In this document: positions 20,217 to 37,662 of the stretch, piece after piece | Numbering within the stretch: position 1 is the stretch's first letter | How the letters are laid out: each line of letters starts with the position of its first letter | From: Gemmobacter caeruleus | Lineage (GTDB): Bacteria; Pseudomonadota; Alphaproteobacteria; Rhodobacterales; Rhodobacteraceae | Assembly: GCF_008271655.1 (NCBI RefSeq) | Contig: NZ_VKKX01000033.1 | Coordinates: 372,001 to 436,000, forward strand | Direction: 5' to 3' | Length of the DNA stretch: 64,000 nt | Translations under genes and position numbers: made by a program | Notes under the pieces: model-generated | The model's database searches: none | Told to the model about the DNA's origin: nothing | Seen by the model: only the letters and a program-made list of their open reading frames with translations

Positions 20217-20526
20217 CAATATCCTGTGTTTCGTCATCAATCGCACCGGGCTCCAGTTCGCGCGGCGCGGTTGACGCCGGGCTTTGCGCATTCATCCCGC
20301 ATTGCTGCGGGTCAAGGTCCGTAACGCCACAGAACCCACGGGCTGACCGCAGGCAGAGTGAATCGTCCGGGCCCCCGCCCAGTCATCGGAATATAGAGGA
20401 TTTCTTAACAAATTGAAAGGCTCGGCGGGGTTTGGCGGCGTAGGGTCAGGGGGGCGGCGCGGCGTTTTGCACTGGACAAACCGGGGCCGGGCCGCTTCCC
20501 TTTGCGGCAGAGCAGCGGGGTTGGTA

Positions 20527-21496: not shown

Positions 21497-22246
21497 TCAG
21501 CCGCGCGAGCCGAGCGCCTTGAGCGCCTCGCCGGGCAGCAGCTTGAAACAGGCCCAATAGCGCGGCGCCAGCCGGCCGGGATTGGTCATCATCCGCCAGA
21601 CCCATTCCATCGCGATCTTCTGCACCCAGACGGGCGCGCGGGTCTGGGTGCCGGCAAGAAAATCCAGCCCGGCCCCGATCGAGGCAAAGCCGACATGCGG
21701 CGCGATTTCGCGGCCCCGCGCGGCCAGGATTTCCTGTTTGGGTGCGCCCAGGGCGAGGAAGGCAAGGCCGATCCCGTCACGCTCCAACCCCTGCAAGAGC
21801 GCGGCCGCCTCGGCGCCGGTCGGATCGAACCCCATGGGCGGGGCGATCATGCGGGCGATGCTCAGCTTGGGCAGGCTGGCTTGCAGGCTGACGGCGGCGG
21901 CGGTCAGCGCGGCCTCGGTCGAGCCGATCAGGGCGACCTTGACGCCACATTGCGCGGCGACGCGGGCCAGCGGCAGCACCATTTCCGACCCCGGCACCAG
22001 CGAGACCGGGCGCCGCGCCAGCCGCGAAAGCCAGACAATCGGGTTGCCATCGGCCACGACCAGATCCTGCGCGGCATAGGCATGCCGGAATTCGGGCATG
22101 GTGCGGAGCTTGACCAGATGATCCAGGTTGATGGTGGCCAGCGCAAAGCCTTCACCCGCGGCGAGGCGCGCCTTGACGGCGGTCAGCAGCGCGGCCGCAT
22201 GCGGCACATTGACGGAAACGGGGGTATCTTCGAATTGAAACTGCAT
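21497..22246 (-). CDS. WecG/TagA/CpsF-family glycosyltransferase
   Basis: A 249-residue enzyme of family GT26. ALATINLDHLVKLRTMPEFRHAY, VVADGNPIVWLSRL, VALIGSTEAALTAAA, and the ending LALGAPKQEILAARGREI plus IGAGLDFLAGTQTRAPVWVQ and EWVWRMMTNP are the family's characteristic blocks. Such enzymes add ManNAcA, ManNAc or glucose-type residues to lipid-linked intermediates. ATG 22246 (MQFQFEDTPV) is used; the frame is open further upstream but those residues are not family-like. Convergent with the previous GT2 gene, divergent from the polymerase. Confidence 0.9.
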   Translation of the reverse strand: MQFQFEDTPVSVNVPHAAALLTAVKARLAAGEGFALATINLDHLVKLRTMPEFRHAYAAQDLVVADGNPIVWLSRLARRPVSLVPGSEMVLPLARVAAQCGVKVALIGSTEAALTAAAVSLQASLPKLSIARMIAPPMGFDPTGAEAAALLQGLERDGIGLAFLALGAPKQEILAARGREIAPHVGFASIGAGLDFLAGTQTRAPVWVQKIAMEWVWRMMTNPGRLAPRYWACFKLLPGEALKALGSRG

Positions 22247-22496
22247 GGCTGGCACTGGCAAAAGGGTCTCTGGGAATGCCGCAGGGTCGCGGCTTGCCCC
22301 GCATAGCATGGAATTGCGGCAAATTCAGCGCCGCAGCCTGAAAAAACACTCTGTTTCCGCGCGGCGCATGGACAGGGGGGGCGGGCTTGACGTAGCGCTC
22401 GGCCATGACCCGTGCCCGCTTTTTGCCCCTTTTTCCTGTCATGATGACCGCGCCCGCAGGCCTGGCCCTGCTGCGGCGCCGGGAAGGAGGCCAACC

Positions 22497-23909
22497 CTGA
22501 TCACGCCGAACCCGCTTGCCTGGCTGATGCTGGCGGTCTGGCCGCTGGTCATGCTGCTGCTGTTCCGGCGGCTGCCGGCGGATCGTGCGCTGATCTGGTC
22601 GGTGCTGGGGGGCTATATGGTGCTGCCGCCGGCCATCGCCTTCAACCTGCCGGTGGTGCCCGACATCACCAAGGACAGCCTGCCGGGGCTGGTGGCGCTG
22701 GCCATCGTGCTGTTCGTGCTGAAGGACCGCCTGTCGTTCTGGCCCGAAAGCTGGCTGGGCCGGGGGTTGATCGTGCTGTTCGTGCTGTCGCCCTTTGGCA
22801 CCGTGCTGACCAACCCCGAGCCGGTGCCGATCGGGCCGGGCATGCTTCAGGGCATGCGGCTTTATGACAGCGTGGCGGCGGTCACCAACCAGATGATCGA
22901 GATCCTGCCGCTGTTCCTGGCGCGGCGCTATCTGGGCACGCCCGAGGGGATGCGCGCCATTCTGGTGGCGCTGGTCGCGGCGGGGCTGGCCTATTCGCTG
23001 CCGATGATGATCGAGGCGCGATTGTCACCGCAGCTCAATGTCTGGATCTATGGCTATTTCCAGCATGATTTCTTTCAGACCATCCGCAATGGCGGCTTTC
23101 GTCCGGTGGTGTTCATGCCGCACGGGCTTTGGGTTGCGTTCTTTGCGCTGATGGCCTTTGCGGCGGCGCTGGTCTTTCTGCGGCTGGGGCCGGTGGCGGC
23201 GCGGCCACGGCAATTCGCGACGGTGCTTTATCTGGGCGTCATGCTGGCGCTGTGCAAAAGCATGGGCGTGCTGATCGACGCGGCGGTGCTGCTGCCGCTG
23301 ATCCTGTTCGCGCCGCGCCGCTGGCAGGTCTATGTGGCCTTTGTGCTGGCGCTGGTGGTCATCACCTATCCGGCGCTGCGCGGTCTGCATCTGCTGCCGC
23401 TGGACGAGGTGACGAATTTCGCGCGCGGCTTCTCGGCCGACCGGGCCGGGTCGTTCCAGTTCCGGCTGAACAACGAAGAGGCGCTGCTGGTTCATGCGGC
23501 GGAAAAACCGTGGTTCGGCTGGGGCGGCTATGGGCGCAACCTGCTGTATGACCCGCTCACCGGGGCGCGGCTGTCGATTGCGGACGGGGCCTGGATCATC
23601 ACGCTGGGGCTTTATGGCTGGGCGGGCTATGTCGCGCAGTTCGGGCTTCTGGTGCTGCCGCTCTTGCTGCTGGGGCGCGAGGTCTGGCGCGGCGCGGGGC
23701 CGGCCTCGCCCTGGGTGGCCGGGGTGGCGCTGATCTTTGCGGCCAATCTGATCGACCTTTTGCCGAACGGGACGCTGGTGCCCTTTACCTGGCTGCTGGC
23801 CGGCGCGATCCTCGGTCAGGCCGAGCTGCTGTCGCGGCAACGCGCGCTGCGCCGTCAGCGCGATATTGCAACCCATTGGCAGGCCGGGCAGGGCCGCACG
23901 GTGATCTGA
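22497..23909 (+). CDS. Wzy/O-antigen-ligase-like membrane protein
   Basis: A roughly 470-residue membrane protein with ten or more hydrophobic helices, a large loop near residues 290-340 (NFARGFSADRAGSFQFRLNNEE) and the motif KPWFGWGGYGRN, which resembles the conserved loop of O-antigen polymerases/ligases (ExoQ-like). It is the only candidate polymerase in the locus. The start is unclear: AAGGAGG at 22484-22490 is followed 6 bases later by CTG (22497), with no ATG, GTG or TTG at that distance. The in-frame ATG at 22527 is 36 bases from the ribosome-binding site; an upstream in-frame ATG exists at 22369. Confidence 0.75.
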   Translation: MITPNPLAWLMLAVWPLVMLLLFRRLPADRALIWSVLGGYMVLPPAIAFNLPVVPDITKDSLPGLVALAIVLFVLKDRLSFWPESWLGRGLIVLFVLSPFGTVLTNPEPVPIGPGMLQGMRLYDSVAAVTNQMIEILPLFLARRYLGTPEGMRAILVALVAAGLAYSLPMMIEARLSPQLNVWIYGYFQHDFFQTIRNGGFRPVVFMPHGLWVAFFALMAFAAALVFLRLGPVAARPRQFATVLYLGVMLALCKSMGVLIDAAVLLPLILFAPRRWQVYVAFVLALVVITYPALRGLHLLPLDEVTNFARGFSADRAGSFQFRLNNEEALLVHAAEKPWFGWGGYGRNLLYDPLTGARLSIADGAWIITLGLYGWAGYVAQFGLLVLPLLLLGREVWRGAGPASPWVAGVALIFAANLIDLLPNGTLVPFTWLLAGAILGQAELLSRQRALRRQRDIATHWQAGQGRTVI

Positions 23910-23918
23910 GGGCCGCGC

Positions 23919-24908
23919 ATGAAGGTGGATATCGGGATCTTTGCCCATGATGAGGCCGCGGGGATCGCGGCGGTGGTCGCGGCCTTTCTGGCGCAGCGCC
24001 GCGACGGGCTGGATCTGCGCGTGCTGGTGCTGGCCAACGGGTGCCGCGACGCGACGGCGGCGCTGGCGCGGGCCGCCGGGGCCGAGGTGGCAGACCTGCC
24101 CGAAGGCGGCAAGAGCCGCACCTGGAACCGTTTCGTGCATGACCTGTCGCGCCCCGATGCGGCGATGCTGGTCTTTGCCGATGCCGATATCGAATTGCCC
24201 GAGCCGGATATGGTGCTGCGGCTGGTGCAGGGGCTGGCGGCGCGGCCCGGTCTGCATGTGATGAATTCGCGCCCCATGAAGGATATCGTGGCCCGCCCCG
24301 AGGGGCTGAGCCTTCAGGACCGGCTGATTGCCCTGGCCGGCGGCACACTGGATAATTGGCGTCGCGCGATCTGTGGCCAGCTTTATGCCATGCCGGCCGC
24401 GCGGGCGCGGGCGCATTGGATGCCGGTCGGCCTGCCGGTGGAGGATGGCTTTCTGCGCGCCATGGTGTTGACCGACGCACTGACGCTACCCGAGGATCTG
24501 ACGCGGATCGACGGTGCCGATGTCTGGCATGTCTATGCGTCAGAGCGGGGTCTGGCCGCCTTGATCCGGCATCAGGTGCGCATCGTCATCGGCTCGGCGA
24601 TCAATCTTGCGGTCTTCGACGCGCTGCGCGCCCGGCCCGCCGAAACCCGGGCCGCCGATCTGCGGGCGGCGGCGGCACAGCCCGGCTGGTTGCCCGCCCT
24701 GTTGCGGGCGCGGTTGCCGCGTTGGCCTTATGGCTTTGTTCCGCTTCACTTTCTGATCAAGCGCAGCCAGAACCTGCTGCGCGACCCGCGCCGGCTGCGC
24801 AGTCCCAAGGGAGTGATGCTGCTGGTGGCGGGCTTTGGTTTTGATCTGGTTGTCTATGTGCTGGCGCAAATCCGCATGGCGCGGGGCACCGGCGCCGGCC
24901 ACTGGTAG
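23919..24908 (+). CDS. Family 2 glycosyltransferase
   Basis: A 329-residue GT2-type enzyme: VDIGIFAHDEAAGIAAVVAA, VLANGCRDATAALARAAG, and MLVFADADIELPE (DAD). GLPVEDGFLRAMVLTD is the acceptor-side acidic motif. A C-terminal hydrophobic segment (GVMLLVAGFGFDLVVYVLAQI) probably anchors it. Compared with typical GT2 enzymes the loop LPEGGKSRTWNRFV replaces the usual KGKxxALN motif with the same spacing, so it is likely still a transferase. It lies 9 bases after the polymerase gene, in one transcript with it. Confidence 0.82.
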   Translation: MKVDIGIFAHDEAAGIAAVVAAFLAQRRDGLDLRVLVLANGCRDATAALARAAGAEVADLPEGGKSRTWNRFVHDLSRPDAAMLVFADADIELPEPDMVLRLVQGLAARPGLHVMNSRPMKDIVARPEGLSLQDRLIALAGGTLDNWRRAICGQLYAMPAARARAHWMPVGLPVEDGFLRAMVLTDALTLPEDLTRIDGADVWHVYASERGLAALIRHQVRIVIGSAINLAVFDALRARPAETRAADLRAAAAQPGWLPALLRARLPRWPYGFVPLHFLIKRSQNLLRDPRRLRSPKGVMLLVAGFGFDLVVYVLAQIRMARGTGAGHW

Positions 24909-25101: not shown

Positions 25102-28100
25102 ATGACGGATGCTGAAAGGCCGCGGTCCGAAGTCGCGGAAACGGATATTGCGATTGTCGGCATGGCGGCGCACCTTCCCGGTGCGGCCTCGATCAATGAC
25201 TATTGGCAGAATCTGCGCGCGGGCGTCGAAAGTATCCGCCATCTGTCCGAGGCAGAGCTGATTGCCCATGGCGAAAGCCCGGCAAAGATGCGCCACCCCA
25301 ATTATGTGCCCGCCGCCGCCCCGCTGGACGGCTTTGCCGATTTCGACGCCGATTTCTTTGGCTTTTCCCCGAAAGAGGCGGCGATCCTCGACCCGCAGCA
25401 CCGGCAGTTCCTGGAGGTCGCCTGGGAGGCGCTGGAGAATGCCGGCCACATGCCCGAAGGGTTTGGCGGCGCGATCGGCGTCTATGCCGGCTGCGGCATG
25501 GGGTCGTATTTCTATTTCAACCTGTGTTCCAACCGCGACCTGGTCGAGAATACGGGCATGTTCCTGCTGCGCCATACCGGCAATGACAAGGATTTCCTGT
25601 CCACCCGCGTCAGCCATATCCTTGATCTCAAGGGGCCGTCGATCAATGTGCAGACCGCCTGTTCCACCAGCCTTGTCGCGCTGCATTACGCGGCGCAGGC
25701 GCTGTTGTCGGGCGAATGCGACATGGCGCTGGCGGGGGGGGTGACCATCGAATTGCCGCAGGCCCGTGGCTATGTGTTCAACGAGGGCGAGATCCTGTCG
25801 CCCGACGGCCATTGCCACGCCTTTGACCATCGCGCGCAGGGCACGGTGTTCGGGTCGGGCGCGGGCTGTGTGGTGTTGCGCCGGGCGGCGGATGCGATCC
25901 GGGACGGCGATCATATCTGGGCCATCGTGAAGGGTTCGGCGGTCAATAATGACGGTGCGGCCAAGGCCGGCTATCTGGCGCCCTCGGTCGAGGGGCAGGC
26001 GCGCTGCGTGGCCGAGGCGCAGGCGGTGGCGGGCGTCCCGTCCGATACCGTCGATTATGTCGAATGTCATGGCACCGGCACCTATCTGGGCGACCCGATC
26101 GAGGTGGCGGCGCTGACTCAGGGCTTTGCCGAAAGCGGGCAGGGCGTGGGCACCTGCCGCATCGGCAGCGTCAAGACCAATATCGGCCATCTCGATACCG
26201 CCGCCGGGGTGGCGAGCCTGATCAAGGTCGCGCTCAGCCTGCATCACCGCGAGATGCCGCCCTCGCTGGGCTATGAGGCGCCCAATCCGGCGATTGATTT
26301 CGAGACCTCGCCCTTTCGGGTGAATGACCGGCTGACCGCGTGGGAGGCAACCGCCCATCCGCGCCGCGCCGGGGTGAACAGCCTGGGCGTGGGCGGCACC
26401 AATGCCCATGCGGTGCTGCAAGAGGCGCCCGACCGCGCGGCCAGCGAAGAAAGCCTCTGGCCGTTTCAGCCCATCGTGATTTCCGCCCGGTCGAAGGCGG
26501 CGCTGGATGCGCAGGCGGCGCGGCTGGCGGCGCATCTGCGCGCGCATCCGGAACAGCCGCTCGCCGATGTGGCCTATACGCTGAAAGAGGGGCGCCGCGC
26601 GTTTGAAAAGCGCCGCGTGCTGGTCGCCGAAAGCCATGAACAGGCGGCCGATCTGCTGGAGGGCAAGGATCCGCGCCGTGTGTTCAATCATGAACCACTG
26701 GACGCGCCCGAGGTGGTGTTCATGTTCCCCGGCGGCGGCGCGCAATATGCCGGCATGGCGCGCGATCTTTATGATACCGAACCGGAATTCCGCGACTGGA
26801 TGGATCGCGGCCTTGCCGTGCTGCAACCGAAGCTCGATTACGATATCCGCGCGCTCTGGCTGCCCGAACCGGGTGATGAGGCGGCGGCGAATGACCGGCT
26901 CAAGCGGCCTTCGGTGCAATTGCCGCTGATCATGATCACCGAATATGCGCTGGCAAAGCTGTATGAAAGCTGGGGGATCAGCCCGGCGGCGCTGATCGGG
27001 CATTCCATGGGCGAAAACACCGCCGCCTGTCTGGCCGGGGTGATGTCGTTCGAGGATTGCATCGGGCTGGTGCATCTGCGGGGTCAGTTGTTCGATACCG
27101 TGCCGCCGGGCGGCATGCTTTCGGTGCCGCTGGACGAGGCGGCGCTGCGCCCGCGCCTGACCGGCGATCTGGATCTGGCCAGCGTGAACGCGCCGGGCCT
27201 TTGCGTCGTCTCCGGCCCCGATGCGGCGCTGGCCGAGCTGGCCGCGACGCTGGCGGCCGAGGAGGTGGAGACGCAGCGCATCGCCATCGACATCGCGGCG
27301 CATAGCCGGATGCTCACGCCGATCCTGACGCGCTTTGGCGATTATCTGCGCGCGATCCCGCTGCATGCGCCGGCACTGCCGGTGATCTCCAACGCGACGG
27401 GCCTGCCGCTGACGGCGGAACAGGCGACCAGCCCGGAATACTGGGTCAGCCATCTGCGCAATACCGTGCAGTTCCGGCAGGGCATGGCGCATCTGATGGC
27501 CGATCCGAACCGGGTCTACCTGGAAATGGGCCCAGGGCGGGCGCTGTCATCGCTGGCCCAGGCCAATGGCGTGCCGCAGGGGCAGGTCATCGCGGCGCTG
27601 CGCCACCCCGAACAGCGCATGGCCGATGACCAGTGGCATATCGCCAGCATGGCCCGGCTCTGGGCTTGCGGCGTGGCGGTGGACTGGGCGCCGATCTGGG
27701 CCGAAGCGCGGCGCAACCGCGTGCCGCTGCCGGGCTATGCCTTCCAGCGCAAGACCTATTTCATCGAACCCGCGCAGCCCGCACTGGCCGAGGCAGATAC
27801 CGCGCCCGAGCGGATCGAGGATCTGGCGCAATGGGGCTGGCAGCCGGTCTGGCGGGCGCAGGACGCCGAGCCGGCCGAGGAGGACAGCCCGCATGGCTGG
27901 CTGGTCTTTGCCGATGAGGCCGGGCTGGCCGCGCCGGTGATCGCCGGGCTGCGCGACCGGGGCCATCATGTGACCGTCGTGCGCAGCGGCGACGCCTTTG
28001 CCCGCGATGGTGAGGGGGGCTACATCCTCAACCCCGAACGCGGGCGCGAGGGGTATGACGCGCTGATCCGCGATCTGGTGGCGCAGGGCCGCGCGCCCGA

Positions 28101-31100
28101 CCGGATCGCGCATTTCTGGCTGGTGACGGATCGCGAGACATTCCGCCCGGGATCGAGCTTTTTCCATCGCAATGTGGAGCAGGGCTTTTATGCGCTGATG
28201 TTCCTCGGACAGGCGATGGCCGAGGAAAACCTGCCGATGCCGATCCATCTGACGGTGGTGACGACCGGCGCCGCGCAGGTGGCGGACGAGGGCCTGCCCT
28301 GGCCTGAAAAGGCCACCATCTCGGGGCCGGCGCGGGTGATGCCGCGCGAATTGCCGGGGCTGACCTGCGCCACGCTGGATGTGGTCTTGCCGCCCCTGCC
28401 CAAGGGGCGGCGGGCAGTGCGCGATGGGGCGGCGCTGGAACGGCTGGCCGATCAGGTTCTGGACGATCTGCTGGCCGAGCCGGCGAACCGCGTCGCGGCG
28501 CTACGGGGCGATCGGCGTGTGGAACGCGGGCTGCGCAAGCTGCGGCTGCCGCCGGCGGCCATCGACCTGCCGCAGGGCGCGCCGGTGCTGATCACCGGCG
28601 GGTTTGGCGGCATCGGCCTGACCCTGGCGGAGCGGCTGGCGACCAGCTGCAAGGCGCGCATCCTGCTGGTGGCGCGGCGTGAATTGCCGCCGCGCGACCA
28701 ATGGGCGGCGCATCTGGCACGCCATGGCGCGGCGGATGCCGTGGGGCGGCGCATACTGGCCGTGCAGCGGCTGGAGGGGTTGGGCGCGCAGGTCATGGTG
28801 GCGCGCGCCGATGTCTGCAATGCGCAGGAGATGCGGGCGGCCATCGCGGCGGGCGAAACCGCTTTTGGCCCCTTGCGGGCGGTGATTCATGCGGCGGGGG
28901 TGGTGGATGACGGCCCGCTTCTGACCAAGAGCCCGGCGGCGGTCGAGGCGGTCTTTGCGCCCAAGCTGCACGGAACCCATGTGCTGCATGACCTGTTCCC
29001 GGACGGGTCGATTGATCTGATGGTGCTGTTTGCCTCTACCTCCACGGTCACCGGGCCGGCGGGGCAGGTCGATTATGTGGCGGCCAACGATTATCTCAAT
29101 GCCTATGCGCAGGGCCGCAAGGGCGGCAAGACCCGGGTTCTCGCGTTGAACTGGGGCATCTGGGCGGATGTCGGCATGGCGGCAGAGGCCCTCGCCGATC
29201 GCAGCGGCAGCGCCCCGGCGGCGCCGCGTCTGCCGGTTACGCGCCCGATGCTGGACAGCACCACCTATGATGCCACCGGCGCCCGGTTGTTCGAGACGCG
29301 GCTGACCACGGATCGCTGGCTGCTGGACGGGCACCGCACGACGGCCGGGCAGGCGCTGATCCCCGGCACCGGCTATCTGGAGATTGCGGCCGAGGCCGCC
29401 GCGGAGGAGGGTTGGAACGCCTTTGAACTGCGCGACCTGACCTTTTTCCGCGCGCTGGAGGTGGCGGATGATGCCGCGCGCGACATGCGGGTGCGGCTGC
29501 GCCCCTCGGATGAGGGATTCGGGCTGGAGGTGCGGTCGGGCCATGACATCCGGGGCCGCACCGGCTTTGCGCTCAATGCCCAGGCGCGGCTGATACCGTT
29601 GCGCGGCGCGGCGGGCCGGGTCGATCTGGCCGCTATTGCCGCGCGCTGCGGTGCGGCCGAGGAAGATCCGCGTGGCATCCGCACCTGGCAAGAGGCGCAT
29701 CTGGCCTTCGGGCCGCGCTGGCGGGTGCTGAACCGCATGGCGCTTGGCGCGGGCGAGGGGCTGGCGATGCTGACCCTGCCCTTGGCGGCGCAGCCCGATC
29801 TGGCGCAGGGCTGGCTGTTGCATCCGGCGCTGCTGGATATCGCGACGGGCTGGGCGATGGGGCTGATCGAGGGCTATCAGCCCGATCACCTCTGGGTGCC
29901 GGTCTCCTATGGCCGCGTCCGGGTCTGGGCGCCGCTGCCCGCGCGCCTGCACAGTTGGGTGCGCAATGCCGCCGCCAATCGCGGCGCGGGGCCGGTTGCG
30001 GTGTTCGACATCACGCTGGCCGATGAAACCGGCGCCGTGGTGATGGAGATCGAGGGTTTCACCATTCGCCGCCTGGAAAGCGGCTTTGTTGCCCCCGCCC
30101 CGGCGGAGCGCGAGCTGGAATTTGACGGCGCCGCCGGGGCGAAGCCCGCCTCGGCGCAAGAGGAGCGGTTGTTGCACAACCTGGCGCAGGGCATCCGCGC
30201 CGCCGAGGGGGCCGAGATGTTCGGCCGCGCGCTGGCCACCGGGGCGGCGCAGGTCATCGTCTCGTCGCTCGATCTGCCGGCGCTGATCCGTCAGGCCGAC
30301 CGGGCCGAGGCGACGCGCCCCGAGGGGCAGACCTTCGCGCGCCCCGATCTCGACAGCGCCTATGTGGAGCCGCGCAACGATCTGGAACGCACGCTGGTCG
30401 GGTTCTGGCAGGATCTGCTGGGGGTGGGGCAGGTCGGGGTCGAGGACGATTTCTTTGCCCTGGGCGGCCATTCGCTGATCGCGGTGCGGCTGTTTGCCAT
30501 GGTGAAAAAGGCGTTTCGCGTCGATTTCCCGATCTCGGTCCTGTTCGAGGCGCCGACGATTGCCGGCTGTGCCGCGCTGATCGCAGACCAGATCGGCCCG
30601 CAAGAGGGCAGCGCCGCCCCCGTGCGCGAAGCCGCGCCGCGCCGCCGCTTTACCCATCTGGTGCCGATGCATGAAGGTGCGGGCGGGCCGAAGCAGCCAT
30701 TCTTCCTGGTCGCGGGCATGTTCGGTAATGTGCTGAACCTGCGGCATCTGGCGCAGCTTCTGGGCGGCGACCGGCCGTTCTACGGCTTGCAGGCGCGCGG
30801 GCTGTTCGGTGAGGATCAGCCGCATGACACCCTGCCCGAGGCCGCGCGCGATTATATCGCCGAGATGCGGCAGGTGCAGCCCAAGGGGCCCTATCTGCTG
30901 GGCGGTTTTTCCGGCGGCGGGCTGACGGCCTGGGAAATGGCCCGCCAGCTCGAGGCCGAGGGCGAGGATGTGTCGATGCTGGTCCTGCTCGACACGCCGC
31001 TGCCGCTGCGCCCGCCGCTGTCGAGGCTGGACAAGGCCATGATCAAATGGGCCGAGCTGAAGGCGCGTGGGCCGGGCTATGTGATTGACTGGGCGCGCAA

Positions 31101-31491
31101 TCGCTGGGCCTGGGAAATCGCGAAACGTCGGGGTGCCGACGCCACCGAGGTCGCGCATCAATTCCACAATGCCGAGATCGAGGCCGCCTTCCGTGCCGCG
31201 ATCGCGGTCTATGCGCTGCCGCTGCGCAAGGGGCCGACGGTGTTGTTCCGCCCGCCGCTGGATCGGCGCTGGCAGGTCTCGAACGGGCAATGGGCCTCGG
31301 GTGCCAAGGAATATGTCTTTGCCGACAATGACCTGACGCGCTTTGCCCCGATGCTGCGGGTGCAAGAGGTGCCGGGCGATCATGACAGCATGGTGCTGGA
31401 GCCGAATGTCCGCGTGCTGGCCGCACGCCTGCGCGAGGTGATCGCCGGGGCAGAGGAGGCCGCGCCCGAACTGCGCCGGGCGGCGGAATGA
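25102..31491 (+). CDS. Type I polyketide synthase, KS-AT-KR-DH-ACP-TE
   Basis: A 2129-residue single-module PKS. Ketosynthase about 12-435 with catalytic C187 (QTACSTS), H323 (ECHGTGT) and H363 (KTNIGHLD). Acyltransferase about 540-850 with S635 in GHSMGE and H734; its second motif is AAHSRM, so substrate preference is unclear. A structural half and catalytic ketoreductase about 890-1360: ITGGFGGIG at 1164-1172, S1312, Y1325, N1329, and VVDDGPL suggesting a B-type ketoreductase. Dehydratase about 1375-1690 as a double hotdog with H1411 (HRTTAGQALIPG, one residue longer than the usual motif) and D1579 (HPALLD). ACP with S1791 (GGHSL). Thioesterase with S1937 (GFSGG), D1964 and H2094. There is no loading module, methyltransferase or enoylreductase. 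KR before DH is not the usual cis-AT order. The stop is coupled (ATGA) to a glycosyltransferase. Confidence 0.93.
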   Translation: MTDAERPRSEVAETDIAIVGMAAHLPGAASINDYWQNLRAGVESIRHLSEAELIAHGESPAKMRHPNYVPAAAPLDGFADFDADFFGFSPKEAAILDPQHRQFLEVAWEALENAGHMPEGFGGAIGVYAGCGMGSYFYFNLCSNRDLVENTGMFLLRHTGNDKDFLSTRVSHILDLKGPSINVQTACSTSLVALHYAAQALLSGECDMALAGGVTIELPQARGYVFNEGEILSPDGHCHAFDHRAQGTVFGSGAGCVVLRRAADAIRDGDHIWAIVKGSAVNNDGAAKAGYLAPSVEGQARCVAEAQAVAGVPSDTVDYVECHGTGTYLGDPIEVAALTQGFAESGQGVGTCRIGSVKTNIGHLDTAAGVASLIKVALSLHHREMPPSLGYEAPNPAIDFETSPFRVNDRLTAWEATAHPRRAGVNSLGVGGTNAHAVLQEAPDRAASEESLWPFQPIVISARSKAALDAQAARLAAHLRAHPEQPLADVAYTLKEGRRAFEKRRVLVAESHEQAADLLEGKDPRRVFNHEPLDAPEVVFMFPGGGAQYAGMARDLYDTEPEFRDWMDRGLAVLQPKLDYDIRALWLPEPGDEAAANDRLKRPSVQLPLIMITEYALAKLYESWGISPAALIGHSMGENTAACLAGVMSFEDCIGLVHLRGQLFDTVPPGGMLSVPLDEAALRPRLTGDLDLASVNAPGLCVVSGPDAALAELAATLAAEEVETQRIAIDIAAHSRMLTPILTRFGDYLRAIPLHAPALPVISNATGLPLTAEQATSPEYWVSHLRNTVQFRQGMAHLMADPNRVYLEMGPGRALSSLAQANGVPQGQVIAALRHPEQRMADDQWHIASMARLWACGVAVDWAPIWAEARRNRVPLPGYAFQRKTYFIEPAQPALAEADTAPERIEDLAQWGWQPVWRAQDAEPAEEDSPHGWLVFADEAGLAAPVIAGLRDRGHHVTVVRSGDAFARDGEGGYILNPERGREGYDALIRDLVAQGRAPDRIAHFWLVTDRETFRPGSSFFHRNVEQGFYALMFLGQAMAEENLPMPIHLTVVTTGAAQVADEGLPWPEKATISGPARVMPRELPGLTCATLDVVLPPLPKGRRAVRDGAALERLADQVLDDLLAEPANRVAALRGDRRVERGLRKLRLPPAAIDLPQGAPVLITGGFGGIGLTLAERLATSCKARILLVARRELPPRDQWAAHLARHGAADAVGRRILAVQRLEGLGAQVMVARADVCNAQEMRAAIAAGETAFGPLRAVIHAAGVVDDGPLLTKSPAAVEAVFAPKLHGTHVLHDLFPDGSIDLMVLFASTSTVTGPAGQVDYVAANDYLNAYAQGRKGGKTRVLALNWGIWADVGMAAEALADRSGSAPAAPRLPVTRPMLDSTTYDATGARLFETRLTTDRWLLDGHRTTAGQALIPGTGYLEIAAEAAAEEGWNAFELRDLTFFRALEVADDAARDMRVRLRPSDEGFGLEVRSGHDIRGRTGFALNAQARLIPLRGAAGRVDLAAIAARCGAAEEDPRGIRTWQEAHLAFGPRWRVLNRMALGAGEGLAMLTLPLAAQPDLAQGWLLHPALLDIATGWAMGLIEGYQPDHLWVPVSYGRVRVWAPLPARLHSWVRNAAANRGAGPVAVFDITLADETGAVVMEIEGFTIRRLESGFVAPAPAERELEFDGAAGAKPASAQEERLLHNLAQGIRAAEGAEMFGRALATGAAQVIVSSLDLPALIRQADRAEATRPEGQTFARPDLDSAYVEPRNDLERTLVGFWQDLLGVGQVGVEDDFFALGGHSLIAVRLFAMVKKAFRVDFPISVLFEAPTIAGCAALIADQIGPQEGSAAPVREAAPRRRFTHLVPMHEGAGGPKQPFFLVAGMFGNVLNLRHLAQLLGGDRPFYGLQARGLFGEDQPHDTLPEAARDYIAEMRQVQPKGPYLLGGFSGGGLTAWEMARQLEAEGEDVSMLVLLDTPLPLRPPLSRLDKAMIKWAELKARGPGYVIDWARNRWAWEIAKRRGADATEVAHQFHNAEIEAAFRAAIAVYALPLRKGPTVLFRPPLDRRWQVSNGQWASGAKEYVFADNDLTRFAPMLRVQEVPGDHDSMVLEPNVRVLAARLREVIAGAEEAAPELRRAAE

Positions 31492-32492
31492 CCGCCGCGG
31501 TTCTCACCGTGATTCTCAACTGGCGCACGCCGGAGATGACGCTGCGATCCTGCGCCGCCGCCTTGCAGGCCATGGCGGGCATTTCCGGTGCAATCACTAT
31601 CGTTGACAACGATTCCGGCGATGGCTCGTTCGAGCGGTTGCAGGCCGAGGTTGCCGCGCGCGGCTGGGGTCACGGCGCGGTGCCGGTGCGGGTGCTGCAA
31701 TCGGGCCGCAATGGCGGCTTTGGCGCCGGCAACAATCACGGGATCAGGGCGGGGCTGCCGGGCGGGGCGCGGCCCGATTATGTCTATATCCTGAATTCCG
31801 ACGCCTTTCCCGCGCCCGGGGCGATCCGGGCGCTGCTCGATCATCTGGAAAGTCACCCCGCGACCGGCTTTGCCGGCAGTTTCATCGCGGGCGAAGATGG
31901 CGCACCGCATCGCACCGCCTTTCGCTTCCCCTCGATTCTGGGCGAGCTGGAGGGCGCGGCGCGCTTTGGCCCGATCTCCCGGCTGTTGCGCAATCATATT
32001 GTCGCGCAGCCGCTGCCGGAACGCACCGGGCGGGTGGATTGGCTGGCCGGGGCGAGCGTGATGATGCGGCAGGATGTGCTGGATCGAATCGGCCTCTTTG
32101 ATGAGACGTTCTTTCTCTATTACGAGGAAACCGATCTTTGCCTGCGGGCAGCGCGGGCGGGCTGGCCCACGGATTATGTGGTGGAAAGCCGGGTGATGCA
32201 TATCGGATCGGTCTCGACGGGCATGAAGACCTGGGCGCGCATCCCGCAATTCTGGCTGGATAGCCGCCGCCACTTTTTCACCAAGAATCATGGGCATATC
32301 TATGCCGCCGCGGCCACGCTTGCCCATCTTGGGGGCGGGCTGCTCTGGCGGTTGCGCGTGTTGGTGCAGCGCAAGGACCGGGGCGATCCGCCGCATTTCC
32401 TGCGAGACCTGATCGTGCATTCATTGCGTCGGGCTGGGCGGGGCAGGCCGGGGGTAACCCCGGCATTGAACAAGGTCAGCCCCGAAGGATAG
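31488..32492 (+). CDS. Family 2 glycosyltransferase coupled to the PKS gene
   Basis: A 334-residue GT2 enzyme of the WbbL/rhamnosyltransferase type: LTVILNWRTPEMTLRSC, IVDNDSGDGSFE, GRNGGFGAGNNHGIR, YILNSDAFPAPGA (the DxD position reads NSD) and the acceptor motif DETFFLYYEETDLCLRARRAG-like segment near residue 205 (seen as YYEETDLCLRAARAGW). Its ATG overlaps the PKS stop and the NRPS starts 36 bases later behind AAGGAG, so it is part of the assembly-line transcript. It could glycosylate the polyketide/peptide product or belong to EPS assembly; sequence alone does not decide. Confidence 0.88.
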   Translation: MTAAVLTVILNWRTPEMTLRSCAAALQAMAGISGAITIVDNDSGDGSFERLQAEVAARGWGHGAVPVRVLQSGRNGGFGAGNNHGIRAGLPGGARPDYVYILNSDAFPAPGAIRALLDHLESHPATGFAGSFIAGEDGAPHRTAFRFPSILGELEGAARFGPISRLLRNHIVAQPLPERTGRVDWLAGASVMMRQDVLDRIGLFDETFFLYYEETDLCLRAARAGWPTDYVVESRVMHIGSVSTGMKTWARIPQFWLDSRRHFFTKNHGHIYAAAATLAHLGGGLLWRLRVLVQRKDRGDPPHFLRDLIVHSLRRAGRGRPGVTPALNKVSPEG

Positions 32493-32528
32493 GGGCATCG
32501 CCGCCTTCAGGGGCGGAAGGAGTGTGAG

Positions 32529-35500
32529 ATGAACCCGTTTTCCTGTTTCCTCATCGGCAATGAGAGTTTGACCCGCGAATGCGCCGCGCTGTTGCTCGCG
32601 CGCGGGCATCGCATCGCGGCGCTGGTCACCCGCAACCCCGATCTGCGCGCCTGGGCCGAGGCAAAGGGCCTTGCCGTCATCGCGCAGCAGGCGGGATGGG
32701 CCGAGGCCCTGCCGGGGCAGGTGGACTGGCTCTTGTCGGTGGCCAACCTCTCATTGGTGCCCGAGGCCGCCTTGCGGCGCGCGGCGAAGGGCGGGGTCAA
32801 TTTCCATGACGGGCCGCTGCCGCGCCATGCCGGGCTGAACGCGCCGGTCTGGGCCATTCTGGGCGGCGAGGCGGAGCATGGTATCGCCTGGCACCGCATC
32901 ACCGGCGGCGTGGATGAGGGCGCCATTCTGGTGCAGCGCCGCTTTGCCATTGCCGCGACCGATACCGCGCTGACGCTGAACACCCGCTGTTTCGAGGCGG
33001 CGCTGGACAGCTTCCCCGAGGTGATGGCGGCGCTGGAGGCCGATGCGCCGGGCGTGGCGCAGGATCTGGCCGGGCGCAGCCTGCATCTGCGTGCCGACCG
33101 TCCGGCGGCGGCGGGGCGGCTGGATTTCGCCCAAAGCGCGCCGCAGGTCGCGGCACTGGTGCGGGCGCTGGATCATGGCAGCTACTGGAACCCGCTGACC
33201 ACGGCAAAGCTGTGGGATGGGCGGCGTTATGTCGTGGCCGGCGGGGCCGAGGAAGTGCCGGGCAGCGGTGTGCCGGGGCAGGTGCTGGCGGCGACCGAGG
33301 ATTCGGTGGTGGTGGCCTGCGCTTCGGGCGCGGTGCGGCTGTCGCGGCTGACCTGCCAGAAGGGCTTTCCGGTCTCGGGTCTCAGCCTGCCGAACCCGCT
33401 GCTATCGGCAAGCCCGGCCGAGGCCGAGGCGCTGACCCGCGCGTTGGCGGCTGTGGTGCCGAAAGAGATGGCGCATCGCAAGGCGCTGCGGGCGCTTGAC
33501 CCCGCCGAGGTGCCGGGCGCGACCGGCGCCGAAGGCGCGCCGCTTTGGGCGGCGGTGCCGCTGGCGCTGCCCTCGCTGGAACTGGCGGGTCTGGCGGCGG
33601 TGCGGCTGTCGGGCAAGCCGGTGGCGGATCTGGCCTTTGGCGCGGCCCATGCGGGCGAGGGGATCCTGTCGGATTGGGTGCCGCTGCGGGTGGCGGCCGA
33701 GGGTGCGTTGCCCGAGGCGCTGGCGCGCGTTGCGGCGGATTTGCAGGGGGCTGCGGCGCATCCGGCCTTTGCGCTCGACCTGCTGGCGCGCGACCGGGCG
33801 CTGTTCGGTCTGGTGCCGCCGGCCTTCGGCCTTGGCCTTGCGCCGGTGCAGGGCACGGTGGTCACGCTGGCCCCCGACGCGCTGCATTATGACACGAGCC
33901 GGCTGAGCGCCGATCAGGCCGAGGCATTGGCCGCCCGTCTGGCAACCTTTGCCGCCGCCGCGCAGGGCGATGCGCGGGTGGAACATCTGCCGGTGCTGAC
34001 TGCGGCAGAGCGTGAGGCCGCGCTGGTCGCCCCGAACCGCACGGCGAAAACCTATGATGCCGCGCAATGCGTGCATCAGGCGTTTGAGGCGCAGGTGACG
34101 CGCAGCCCCGAGGCGGTGGCCGTGGTGTTCGAGGGCGAGAGCCTGACCTATGCCCAGTTGAACGCCCGCGCCAACCGCGCCGCGCATGTGCTGGCCGGCA
34201 TGGGCGTCGCGCCCGGCACGCTGGTCGGCCTGCATTGCCGCCGTTCGCTGGACCTGTTGGTGGGGGCGCTGGCGATCCTCAAGGCCGGCGGGGCCTATGT
34301 GCCGATGGACCCGGCCTATCCGGCCGAGCGCACGGCGCTGTTCATCGAAGACAGCGCCTGCCCGGTGATCGTGACGCAGGCGGCGCTGGCCGGGGCCTTG
34401 CCCGGTGGCCCGGCGCACCTGTGCCTCGATACCGACCCCCGGCTGGTAGATGCGCCCGAGACCGACCCGCAAAGCGGCGTTGGCGGCGGCGATCTGGCCT
34501 ATATGATCTATACCTCGGGCTCGACCGGCCGGCCCAAAGGGGTGATGGTCGAACATCGCAATGTCGCGAATTTCTTTGCCGGCATGGATGACCGGATCGA
34601 CCATGCGGCGGGGGCGGTCTGGCTGGCCGTCACCTCGCTTTCCTTCGACATTTCGGTGCTGGAGCTGTTCTGGACACTGGCGCGCGGCTTCAAGCTGGTG
34701 CTGACCAGCGATGAAAACCGGGCGCTGGTGTCGAACGGGCGGATCGGGTCGGCCAAGGGGATGGAGTTCTCGCTCTATTACTGGGGCAATGACGACGGCG
34801 CGGGGCCGAAGAAATACGAATTGCTGCTGGAGGGCGCGAAATTCGCCGACAGCCACGGTTTCTGCGCGGTCTGGACGCCAGAGCGGCATTTCCACGCCTT
34901 TGGTGGCCCCTATCCGAACCCGGCGGTGACCGGCGCGGCGGTCGCGGCGGTGACGCGGAATATCGGCGTGCGGTCCGGCTCGGTCGTTTTGCCCTTGCAT
35001 CACCCCGCCCGGGTGGCCGAGGATTGGGCGGTGATCGACAATCTGACCAATGGGCGGGCCGGGCTGGCCGTCGCCTCGGGCTGGCAGCCGGATGATTTCG
35101 TGCTGCGCCCCGAAAACACCCCGCCGAACAACCGCGCCGCGATGTTCGAGGGGATCGAGCAGGTCCGCCGGCTCTGGCGGGGCGAGGCCGTGGATTTCCC
35201 GACGAAAACCGGCACATTCGCGGTGCGCACGCAGCCGCGCCCGGTATCGAAGGAATTGCCGGTCTGGATCACCACCGCCGGCAACCCCGCCACCTGGCGC
35301 GAGGCGGGCGAGATCGGCGCCAATGTGCTGACCCACCTGCTTGGGCAAAGCATCGACGAGGTCGGCGACAAGATCCGCATCTATCACGAGGCGCTGCGCA
35401 AGGCGGGCCATGATCCGGCGGATTTCAAGGTCAGCCTGATGCTGCACACCTATGTCTGCCGCGACCGCGATCAGGCGCGGCGGGTGGCGGAAAAGCCGAT

Positions 35501-37043
35501 GAAGGATTACCTCGCCTCGGCCGTCGGGCTGGTGCAGCAATATGCCTGGGCCTTTCCGGCGTTCAAGAAACCGCAGGGCATTGAAAAACCGCAGGATATT
35601 GACCTGCGCACCCTGTCCTCCGACGAAAGCGCGGCGATCCTCGATTTCGCGTTTCAGCGGTATTTCGAGGATTCGGGCCTGTTCGGCACGGTCGAGGATG
35701 CGCTGGACCGGGTGGAAGACCTCAAGCGTATCGGCGTGACCGAGGTCGCCTGTCTGATCGACTATGGCATCGCGCCCGAGGCGGTGATGGAGGGGCTTTA
35801 TCCGCTGGCCGAGGTGCTGCGCCGCGCCAATGCGGGCGGCGAACCTGCCGCGGATGATTTCTCGATCGCGGCACAGGTGATCCGCCACAAGGTCACGCAT
35901 ATGCAATGCACGCCCTCGATGGCGCGGATGATCCTGATGAATGCCGAGGCCGGCATGGCGCTTGGTCAGGTCAAGACCCTGATGCTGGGCGGCGAGGCAC
36001 TGCCGGGCGCCTTTGTGCGCGATCTGCGCAAGGTGACCGGCGCGCGCATCCTCAACATGTATGGGCCGACAGAAACGACGATCTGGTCCACGGTGGAGGA
36101 AGCGGGCGAAGGCGAGGGGGTGGTGAATATCGGCACGCCCATTGCGAATACCCAGGTCTATGTGCTGGATGACCGGCAGCAACCCGTGCCGCCCGGCGTG
36201 GCGGGCGAGTTGTGGATTGGCGGTGATGGCGTGACGCGCGGCTATTGGCAGCGCGACGATCTGACGGCCGAGCGCTTTCTGCCCGATCCGTTCCGGGCGG
36301 GCGGGCGGATGTATCGCACCGGCGATCTGGTACGGCTGCGGGGGGATGGCAAGCTTGATTACCTCGGGCGGGTGGATTTCCAGGTCAAGCTGCGCGGCTA
36401 CCGGATCGAGCTGGGCGAGATCGAAAGCCGGCTGGAGGAACAGCCCGGCGTGACGCAGGCGGTGGTGCTGGCGCGCGAGGATCAGCCGGGCGATCTGCGG
36501 CTGGTGGCCTATGTCACCGGCACCGCGCAGGAGGCGGCGCTGAAATCCGCGCTGGCCGCCAGCCTGCCCGACCATATGGTGCCCGCCCATGTCGTCACGC
36601 TGGAGCGGTTCCCGCTGACGCCGAACCGCAAGGTCGATCGCAAGGCCCTGCCGGCCCCGCAAGCGCAGGCCGTGGCGGTGCTGCACGAGGCGCCGCAAGC
36701 CGGGCTTCAGGCCCAGATCGCCGAGGTCTGGCAGCGCGTGCTGGGCGTGCCCAAGGTGGGGGCCAAGGACAATTTCTTTGCGCTTGGCGGGCATTCCCTG
36801 CTGGCGGTGCAGGCGCATCGGGAATTGCGTGACGGGCTGGGGCTGGCGAAGCTGTCGATCACCGACATCTTCCGCTTTCCCGTGCTGTCGGCCCTTGCGG
36901 CGCATCTGGGCGATGGGGCGCGGCCGGCGGCGCCCCCGGCCAATGCGGGCGTCGCGCCCGAGGCGGCGGCTGCGGCGCGGGCGGATGCCCGGATGGATGC
37001 CATGGCGCGGCGCCGGGCGATGCGGGCGGGCCGGGATGGCTGA
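32529..37043 (+). CDS. NRPS: formyltransferase - relic condensation lobe - adenylation domain with embedded luciferase-like monooxygenase - PCP
   Basis: A 1504-residue hybrid protein. Residues 1-300 are a methionyl-tRNA-formyltransferase-like domain with the catalytic N91, H93 (VNFHDGPLPRHAG) and D129 (GVDEGAIL). Residues about 330-490 resemble only the C-terminal lobe of a condensation domain (DWVPLRV; HPAFALDLLARD) and lack HHxxxDG. The adenylation domain starts near 510; motif A3 (YMIYTSGSTGRPKG) is near 660 and A4 (FDISVLE) near 706. A luciferase-like monooxygenase occupies about 735-1100 (GMEFSLYYWGNDDG; WTPERHFHAFGGPYPNP). The adenylation domain resumes with MYGPTETT near 1177, YRTGDLVR and NRKVDRKAL (A10 lysine). 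The PCP serine is S1423 (GGHSLL). The code read by eye (D-I-L-Q-M-G-M-I-W-K) is close to glycine. The PPTase gene overlaps its end by 8 bases. Confidence 0.92.
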   Translation: MNPFSCFLIGNESLTRECAALLLARGHRIAALVTRNPDLRAWAEAKGLAVIAQQAGWAEALPGQVDWLLSVANLSLVPEAALRRAAKGGVNFHDGPLPRHAGLNAPVWAILGGEAEHGIAWHRITGGVDEGAILVQRRFAIAATDTALTLNTRCFEAALDSFPEVMAALEADAPGVAQDLAGRSLHLRADRPAAAGRLDFAQSAPQVAALVRALDHGSYWNPLTTAKLWDGRRYVVAGGAEEVPGSGVPGQVLAATEDSVVVACASGAVRLSRLTCQKGFPVSGLSLPNPLLSASPAEAEALTRALAAVVPKEMAHRKALRALDPAEVPGATGAEGAPLWAAVPLALPSLELAGLAAVRLSGKPVADLAFGAAHAGEGILSDWVPLRVAAEGALPEALARVAADLQGAAAHPAFALDLLARDRALFGLVPPAFGLGLAPVQGTVVTLAPDALHYDTSRLSADQAEALAARLATFAAAAQGDARVEHLPVLTAAEREAALVAPNRTAKTYDAAQCVHQAFEAQVTRSPEAVAVVFEGESLTYAQLNARANRAAHVLAGMGVAPGTLVGLHCRRSLDLLVGALAILKAGGAYVPMDPAYPAERTALFIEDSACPVIVTQAALAGALPGGPAHLCLDTDPRLVDAPETDPQSGVGGGDLAYMIYTSGSTGRPKGVMVEHRNVANFFAGMDDRIDHAAGAVWLAVTSLSFDISVLELFWTLARGFKLVLTSDENRALVSNGRIGSAKGMEFSLYYWGNDDGAGPKKYELLLEGAKFADSHGFCAVWTPERHFHAFGGPYPNPAVTGAAVAAVTRNIGVRSGSVVLPLHHPARVAEDWAVIDNLTNGRAGLAVASGWQPDDFVLRPENTPPNNRAAMFEGIEQVRRLWRGEAVDFPTKTGTFAVRTQPRPVSKELPVWITTAGNPATWREAGEIGANVLTHLLGQSIDEVGDKIRIYHEALRKAGHDPADFKVSLMLHTYVCRDRDQARRVAEKPMKDYLASAVGLVQQYAWAFPAFKKPQGIEKPQDIDLRTLSSDESAAILDFAFQRYFEDSGLFGTVEDALDRVEDLKRIGVTEVACLIDYGIAPEAVMEGLYPLAEVLRRANAGGEPAADDFSIAAQVIRHKVTHMQCTPSMARMILMNAEAGMALGQVKTLMLGGEALPGAFVRDLRKVTGARILNMYGPTETTIWSTVEEAGEGEGVVNIGTPIANTQVYVLDDRQQPVPPGVAGELWIGGDGVTRGYWQRDDLTAERFLPDPFRAGGRMYRTGDLVRLRGDGKLDYLGRVDFQVKLRGYRIELGEIESRLEEQPGVTQAVVLAREDQPGDLRLVAYVTGTAQEAALKSALAASLPDHMVPAHVVTLERFPLTPNRKVDRKALPAPQAQAVAVLHEAPQAGLQAQIAEVWQRVLGVPKVGAKDNFFALGGHSLLAVQAHRELRDGLGLAKLSITDIFRFPVLSALAAHLGDGARPAAPPANAGVAPEAAAAARADARMDAMARRRAMRAGRDG

Positions 37044-37662
37044 TCACGGGCGTTTGCAACAAGTGGCGCGGGCGCTCTTGCCGCGCGCCGTCGGGCTGGG
37101 CGTCACCGATCCGCGCGGCGATCACCCGGCCTTTCCGGGCGAAACCGCGACGGGCCTGCCGCAGCGGCTGGCCGAGTTTCGCGCCGGGCGGGCCGCGTTG
37201 CGGCTGGCCATGGCCGAGATCGGCCTTCCGCCCCTGCCGGTCCCCATGGGCGAGGATCGCGCGCCGGTCTGGCCGCCGGGGATGATCGGGTCGATCAGCC
37301 ATAGCGCGGATCTGTGCCTTGCCGCCGTCACCGTGCCGTCGCCGCTGCGCGGGATCGGGGTCGATCTGGAACCTGCCCTGCCGCTGGATCCGGCATTGCG
37401 CCCTGTCGTGCTGCGGGCCGAGGAACAGGGCGTGACCGACCATCAGGCCAAGCTGGTCTTTGCCGCGAAAGAGGCCGCCTACAAGGCGCAATATGGCATC
37501 AGCCGCACGCTGTTCGATTTCCATGTTCTGTCGGTGCGGCTGGAGGATGGCCGGTTCGAGGCGCGCTTCCGCGAGGAGATCACCCCCTTCCCCAGCGATT
37601 TCACGCTGCGTGGCCGCTGGGCCGAGATTGAGGGGCATTTCCTCTGTGTCGTGACGCTCTGA
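37036..37662 (+). CDS. Sfp/EntD-type 4'-phosphopantetheinyl transferase
   Basis: A 208-residue enzyme that moves phosphopantetheine from CoA onto the serine of carrier domains. MIGSISHSADLCLAAV, RGIGVDLEPALPL (Mg-binding D-x-E) and VFAAKEAAYKAQY (the WxxKEA-type block) are the three diagnostic motifs, in the EntD-like arrangement. The ATG at 37036 overlaps the NRPS end by 8 bases. Having the activating enzyme as last gene makes the PKS-GT-NRPS-PPTase set self-sufficient for priming its ACP (S1791) and PCP (S1423). Confidence 0.92.
   Translation: MADHGRLQQVARALLPRAVGLGVTDPRGDHPAFPGETATGLPQRLAEFRAGRAALRLAMAEIGLPPLPVPMGEDRAPVWPPGMIGSISHSADLCLAAVTVPSPLRGIGVDLEPALPLDPALRPVVLRAEEQGVTDHQAKLVFAAKEAAYKAQYGISRTLFDFHVLSVRLEDGRFEARFREEITPFPSDFTLRGRWAEIEGHFLCVVTL

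Follow-up and report, generated by a model that had tools for sequence, protein, structure and literature searches.

A polyketide synthase–nonribosomal peptide synthetase cassette linked to exopolysaccharide loci in Rhodobacteraceae, and its tentative role in acylating the polysaccharide

The closest described counterparts of the locus analyzed here belong to several natural-product assembly lines. In the initiation module of the linear gramicidin synthetase LgrA, a formyltransferase (F) domain stands N-terminal to an adenylation (A) domain and a peptidyl carrier protein (PCP) domain. In the myxothiazol and melithiazol pathways, a flavin mononucleotide (FMN)-dependent monooxygenase (MOx) interrupts a glycine A domain between a4 and a5 and hydroxylates the glycyl α-carbon, after which C–N cleavage leaves a glyoxylyl group and frees the upstream chain as an amide (PMC10204066; this and the other papers cited by PMC number are drawn on in excerpt). 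The solanimycin proteins SolF/SolG contain a glycine module with a flavin monooxygenase, placed between a8 and a9, that yields α-hydroxyglycine (PMC10204066), while the MOx of the puwainaphycin protein PuwE, assigned together with an aminotransferase to making a 3-amino-2-hydroxy acyl group, is placed between polyketide synthase (PKS) and nonribosomal peptide synthetase (NRPS) modules (PMC4219810). Here we describe a locus of Gemmobacter caeruleus (NCBI RefSeq assembly GCF_008271655.1, contig NZ_VKKX01000033.1, positions 372,001 to 436,000 of the forward strand; this whole stretch of 64,000 nucleotides is the window), in which a cassette at positions 25102-37662 encodes a PKS, a GT2-family glycosyltransferase (GT), an NRPS and a 4'-phosphopantetheinyl transferase (PPTase). 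Genome comparison ties the cassette to exopolysaccharide (EPS) loci in two bacterial orders. We tentatively propose, with a little less than even confidence in the complete scheme, that the PKS–NRPS line builds a formylated, oxidized, glycine-derived C4 acyl group for the EPS repeat unit, to be transferred by the thioesterase (TE) domain and edited outside the cell by an SGNH-fold protein, and that one lineage has been stripped to a glycyl transferase made of A(Gly), acyl carrier protein (ACP) and TE. The cassette genes are as follows.

25102..31491, + strand: type I PKS of 2129 aa, domain order KS-AT-structural KR-KR-DH-ACP-TE (Pfam/NCBIfam domains, conserved catalytic residues)
31488..32492, + strand: GT2 glycosyltransferase, probably an EPS repeat-unit enzyme (domain match; relatives track the NRPS)
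32529..37043, + strand: NRPS, predicted loader of 1504 aa, formyltransferase-A(Gly)-PCP with MOx inside the A domain and a basic C-terminal tail
37036..37662, + strand: Sfp-type 4'-phosphopantetheinyl transferase (4PPT_N/ACPS; Pfam/NCBIfam)

The open reading frames, junctions and Pfam/NCBIfam matches agree with the four-gene organization given in the initial annotation of the sequence: an ATGA overlap joins the PKS and GT2 genes, and an 8-base overlap joins the NRPS and PPTase genes. The PKS matches KS, AT, KR, PS-DH, PP-binding and Thioesterase models, and the catalytic residues of a type I modular PKS are present (KS C/H/H, AT S, KR S/Y/K, DH H/D, ACP S, TE S/D/H), being kept in 88-90 of 91 aligned homologues. 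The KR (1162-1356) precedes the DH (1382-1660), so that the predicted domain order is unusual in departing from the canonical DH-before-KR arrangement. The conserved AT motif IAAH fits no specificity class that we recognized, and malonyl is our assumption for the extender unit. The NRPS matches Formyl_trans N and C, AMP-binding, the TIGR04020 luciferase-like monooxygenase and PP-binding models; a search of this protein for a Condensation domain (PF00668) found none, in line with the earlier statement that it has no working condensation domain. The single PF00668 match of the whole genome at E≤0.001 lies outside the window, at contig positions 473506-474678, about 37 kb beyond the window end on the same contig. 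The possibility that the NRPS linker (residues ~284-507) holds a degenerate condensation domain was also considered and set aside, since the linker searched alone against Pfam gave no match at E up to 10.

Compared with PDB sequences, the whole window NRPS matches LgrA chains (6mfz) best, and the two proteins share the catalytic N/H/D of the F domain; these residues (N91, H93 and D129) are kept in 93, 91 and 92 of 95 NRPS homologues, respectively. The window protein differs from LgrA in its glycine code, in the MOx inside its A domain, in that no condensation domain was found, and in that it presumably feeds a PKS. With specificity positions assigned by hand on GrsA numbering, its code reads DILQMGMIWK, which is shared by 52 of the 95 homologues, and all 95 conform to DILQ(M/L/F/Y)G(M/L/F)(I/V)WK (one ends before the last residue). 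The variant DILQLGMIWK, one residue away from the window code and carried exactly by 22 of the 95, is the code of four MOX-bearing glycine domains in a survey of bacterial A domains (PMC12283262). Thus, by code, glycine is the predicted substrate. The MOx (residues 747-1096; 473.7 bits to TIGR04020, cut-off 244.45) is set between A4 (706-714) and A5 (1176-1182), as in myxothiazol and melithiazol synthesis; the window module is instead a predicted formylating starter. The solved structure nearest to the MOx in sequence is that of the PuwE domain (6KET, E 1.5e-106), although the latter is not located within a glycine A domain. The likeness to solanimycin is limited by the different insertion point of the monooxygenase (A4/A5 in the window), by the absence of the word 'formyl' from the solanimycin text (PMC10204066), and by the score of the window NRPS below the cut-off of the SolG model NF041803 (NCBIfam; 495.1 versus 2200).

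The PKS gene precedes the NRPS gene in the window. The NRPS gene lies directly 5' of the PKS gene and collinear with it in genomes G144, G574 and G632 and on a plasmid of Aliiroseovarius sp. M344. Moreover, the NRPS C-terminal tails are basic (median charge +5 over the last 30 residues of 95 proteins; mean +4.5, and at least +5 in 51% of 94 NRPS against 12% among 770 other genes), whereas acidic N-termini are typical of the PKS (median charge -3, 81 proteins), a combination that would be expected of a docking pair. The gene orders and opposite terminal charges favor the direction suggested at the outset, from an NRPS loader to a one-extension PKS and its TE, and we consider this order, like the EPS link described below, well supported.

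The distribution of the cassette was surveyed with the NRPS as query in 295 genomes of the family, one per genus and the window genome included (E≤1e-100). A relative was detected in 109 genomes, mostly as a single copy and mostly with 52-70% identity over the full length. This corresponds to over one third of the genera sampled from Rhodobacteraceae sensu lato, marine roseobacters included. A class-wide draw of 385 genomes gave seven NRPS matches at E≤1e-150, five of them from the family of the window (again with the window genome) and two, G574 and G632, from other families at 43-47% identity. Among the 97 family regions together with G574 and G632, the order PKS-GT-NRPS-PPTase without any other match between the four genes was found in 75 of 99. 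Two layouts prevail, one with Wzy upstream and often an SGNH gene downstream, and another with Wzx upstream and Wzz downstream. The named loci, which represent 80 of at least 354 confirmed NRPS relatives, include Cypionkella, Paracoccus, Shimia, Sulfitobacter, Roseovarius and Leisingera, and, outside Rhodobacterales, Aureimonas, Devosia, Rhizobium, Agrobacterium, Bosea and Methylorubrum. A divergent arrangement of the PKS and the NRPS-PPTase pair is the usual one in Hyphomicrobiales.

In the window, the cassette is separated from the last gene of an EPS locus (end at 24908) by a gap of 193 bases before the PKS start. The genes of this locus are listed below.

8749..9666, + strand: SGNH hydrolase/acyltransferase-fold protein, N-terminal helix interpreted as a membrane anchor (GHSL S53, D236, H239)
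9679..12114, + strand: protein with an SGNH-related N-terminal part and a conserved C-terminal part (~residues 273-805), without Pfam match
12099..12932, + strand: GT2 of the EPS locus
13803..14993, - strand: GT4 of the EPS locus, EpsE-like below the NCBIfam cut-off
15108..16442, + strand: Wzx-type flippase
17235..17948, + strand: bacterial sugar transferase (initiating phosphoglycosyltransferase)
18018..19289, - strand: Wzz-type chain-length determinant
19296..20291, - strand: EPS tyrosine-kinase-like ATPase
20413..21483, + strand: GT2 of the EPS locus
21497..22309, - strand: WecG/TagA/CpsF-family GT
22245..23909, + strand: Wzy-like polymerase, Wzy_C below cut-off, conserved family
23919..24908, + strand: GT2 of the EPS locus

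An initiating transferase, a flippase, Wzz and several GTs were found above the Pfam cut-offs, as in Wzx/Wzy-type loci; the Wzy_C match of the 22245..23909 protein is weak (24.9 bits versus a cut-off of 31.7), and its family is conserved. The 7 kb upstream of the cassette had been described as EPS genes on the same strand, of which the assignment stands and the strand does not, as Wzz, the kinase-like gene and the WecG-type GT are on the minus strand. A holdfast identity for the EPS, suggested by resemblance only, was set aside.

To describe the linkage across genomes, homologues of eleven window EPS genes were counted by family with tblastn, independently of gene calls, in the 20-kb stretch around each NRPS. 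At least two EPS families were present in 90 of the 97 family regions and at least three in 79, versus none in 20 control stretches drawn from 20 of these genomes; the cassette is thus not one that routinely occurs away from EPS genes. At least one EPS family was seen in 72 of the 80 named loci, at least two in 69 and at least three in 64, and the remaining 8 have none, several of these being on short contigs. For instance, the divergent PKS/NRPS-PPTase genes of Aminobacter plasmid pUSP1 are adjacent to genes for an O-antigen ligase family protein, polysaccharide export, a flippase and GTs, and those of Shinella to genes for a flippase, a WecB-type GT and an EPS polyprenyl glycosylphosphotransferase; further cassette loci of Hyphomicrobiales likewise carry EPS genes. 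A Wzy relative was identified in 112 of the 295 family genomes, 101 of which are NRPS-positive. In G574 none of the window EPS families was counted; this genome was taken for a non-EPS case until Pfam revealed Wzz, GT4, epimerase and DegT genes nearby, and that assignment was withdrawn. Sixteen gene families recur in at least 10 of the 99 regions and comprise the cassette, EPS genes and SGNH proteins, one of them (sugar-oxidoreductase/epimerase-like) being named by eye. Because of this co-occurrence with EPS genes and, in about half of the genomes, with the SGNH protein, the cassette belongs to a larger set and the description 'self-contained' in the initial annotation is not retained.

Relatives of the cassette GT2 are present in 116 of the 295 genomes, 104 of them NRPS-positive. 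There is no GT between the PKS and NRPS genes in five family cassettes (G292, G285, G191, G217 and G185), nor in those of Aminobacter and Shinella; in G191 and G285, a 65%-identical GT is encoded on the same contig, ~5 and ~13 kb away, respectively. In addition, 12 NRPS-negative genomes have GT2 homologues with 32-38% identity, and 9 of these genomes have them within 10 kb of a Wzy homologue. On this evidence we interpret the cassette GT2 as most likely an EPS glycosyltransferase; the cassettes without a GT between PKS and NRPS and the homologues near Wzy disfavor a tailoring enzyme of a small molecule and weaken the earlier view of a possibly glycosylated product. The SGNH protein (8749-9666) was matched in 58 of the 295 genomes, 53 of the matches being strong, and all 58 genomes are NRPS-positive. 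It has an SGNH fold with Ser and D-x-x-H, and the highest-ranked Foldseek matches of its structural model are SGNH hydrolases, including acetylxylan esterases and PatB O-acetyltransferases. Relatives of the adjacent 811-aa protein (9679-12114) also track the NRPS across the 295 genomes. The GHSL and D-x-H of its N-terminal part were read by eye; the protein had no match in Pfam, and its C-terminal part, which tracks the EPS locus across genomes, had no PDB sequence match at E≤1.

A naturally reduced cassette in G097 (G097:C17, ~149200-160000; L048/L049) bears on the role of the remaining domains. Its F domain (N>A, H>R, D>A), PCP (S>W), KS (C>D, H>Q, H>D), AT (S>G, H>T), KR (Y>R) and DH (H>Y) have lost catalytic residues, with the KR S and K and the DH D still present, and the MOx is lost; the A domain, with unchanged Gly code, and the ACP and TE residues are intact. 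The same partition is seen in overall divergence from the other homologues: the F, PCP, KS, AT, KR and DH domains are unusually diverged (z -2.9 to -7.7), and the A domain, linker, structural KR, ACP and TE are normally conserved (z -1.2 to +0.3). The PKS consists of two reading frames (1208 + 779 aa) and the NRPS of one frame of ~1100 aa, with no further stops; the cassette sits in an EPS locus and contains the single NRPS copy found in that genome. The simplest reading of these residues, offered as a suggestion, has the PKS ACP charged with glycine, which the TE then moves. The G097 cassette is perhaps a natural minimal version, a system of three domains. The retention of A, ACP and TE fits acyl (glycyl) transfer from the ACP to an acceptor better than a free signal, and a TE that merely releases the free acid would make little sense. 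A different reduction was observed in G085:C42 (L050/L051), where the MOx and DH are gone and the KR is without S, Y and K; the F, A, PCP, KS, AT, ACP and TE residues are kept.

We propose, at even confidence, that the cassette supplies a Wzx/Wzy-type EPS locus with an acyl group, which the cassette TE hands to an EPS precursor. The PPTase would arm both carrier domains, the NRPS would activate glycine, the F domain would formylate its amine, and the FMN monooxygenase in the A domain would probably hydroxylate the glycyl α-carbon. The starter unit would then pass from the PCP to the PKS KS for a single extension, reduction and dehydration, and the TE would covalently transfer the resulting C4 acyl group (putatively 4-formamido-but-2-enoyl or a 4-oxidized derivative) to a sugar of the EPS precursor, where the SGNH protein, probably facing the periplasm, may later trim or move it in many lineages.

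Several observations weigh against this proposal. The control set comprises 20 stretches only, the co-occurrence p-values take no account of shared ancestry, and fewer than two EPS families are in view in 7 of the 97 regions (G144, G292, G294, G276, G126a, G217 and G185); among the named loci, L152 (24.7 kb) and L220 (24.5 kb) show none at all. The SGNH protein was not matched in 51 of the 109 NRPS-positive genomes, and 5 of its 58 matches are weak, some of them falling on the SGNH-related N-terminus of the 9679-12114 protein. G097 is the single genome of its genus in the set and its PKS is split in two frames, so that slow decay is possible. The PKS TE could simply hydrolyze. Finally, no EPS genes were seen in view around the NRPS-PKS pairs of G144, G632 (zero EPS families in the 20-kb count) and Aliiroseovarius sp. 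M344, and the acyl unit can thus belong to a free compound.

These three genomes form a related, separate non-EPS subgroup. On the M344 plasmid (L234, 12438-27050), and likewise in G144 and G632, the NRPS gene is followed by PKS or PKS-NRPS type genes and an α/β hydrolase gene, which is annotated as acetylxylan esterase in L234 and belongs to the same gene cluster family in G144 and G632. Thioesterase domains commonly hydrolyze or cyclize, and in G144 the PKS frame extends into another A-PCP-TE unit, as is seen in ordinary natural-product assembly lines. Such features would suit a cassette that makes a free diffusible small molecule (a signal, metal ligand or antibiotic), with EPS co-location reflecting shared regulation and a TE that hydrolyzes or cyclizes. 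We consider this explanation rather unlikely for the EPS-linked cassettes: none of the 16 recurrent families resembles a dedicated small-molecule exporter or resistance gene, the SGNH matches are nested within the NRPS-positive genomes, and G097 would yield only free glycine, yet it retains A, ACP and TE.

A further alternative concerns the starter and the MOx chemistry. Given the splitting of glycine in the myxothiazol and melithiazol pathways versus the survival of α-hydroxyglycine in solanimycin B (PMC10204066), the starter would be either N-formyl-α-hydroxyglycyl or glyoxylyl. In the latter case, the formamide would be lost and the glyoxylyl thioester extended to a 4-oxo-but-2-enoyl group, an aldehyde that could cross-link an adhesive polysaccharide. 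The shared A4/A5 position of the MOx points in this direction (PMC10204066), as does the A-domain survey, in which MOX is described as cleaving the glycine backbone and whose glycine code recurs in the 22 homologues noted above (PMC12283262). However, an F domain with a retained triad would be wasteful if the formamide were lost, and α-hydroxyglycine survives in solanimycin B, which makes the glyoxylyl route improbable in our estimate. Althiomycin was dropped as a precedent for oxime formation by a MOx, as its oxime is assigned to the separate enzyme Alb2 in the excerpted source. The weakest explanation, that the cassette hitch-hikes in a mobile EPS island without functional connection, is suggested by the several copies located on plasmids but is very improbable in view of the linkage in two orders, several gene orders and divergent layouts, and of the Wzy, GT and 9679-12114 relatives that track the NRPS over the 295 genomes.

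The cluster itself has very probably been recorded before, in genome mining, among orphan natural-product clusters. An 'NRPS-like/T1PKS' cluster without reported product was described in 18 species among 37 analyzed genomes, Roseibaca included (PMC10584327). In Roseibaca domitiana, it consists of an NRPS gene of 4527 nt, a gap of ~1 kb and a T1PKS gene of 6333 nt, and these sizes and spacing agree with the window cassette; the main text of that paper is without the words 'polysaccharide' and 'formyl'. No report of the EPS link was recognized among the papers listed by searches of the open-licence PMC literature. PKS and NRPS genes two locus numbers apart in Phaeobacter inhibens (PMC4062626) are a candidate further instance of the cluster. 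If the proposed EPS decoration is true, a search for the product should extend beyond culture extracts to purified polysaccharide, and assembly-line chemistry would be linked to cell-surface polymers.

Some relatives have atypical arrangements. G126 has two cassette copies, one with the NRPS gene, a minus-strand SGNH gene and then the PKS gene, and another with altered H and D of the F domain. In a metagenome-assembled genome labelled Myxococcales (L193), a minus-strand PKS gene, NRPS-PPTase genes and EPS genes were identified, and the 55% identity suggests mis-binning or transfer. On a plasmid of Streptomyces sp. NBC_01343 (L226, 12588-18382), an NRPS relative is annotated as a MupA/Atu3671-family protein, with a length of 1758 aa from its coordinates. 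Its cluster contains LysW/aminoadipate-type genes, with no PKS or EPS genes annotated within the 31 kb seen; a flavin reductase gene follows the NRPS-related gene, which hints that a flavin reductase partner may be needed.

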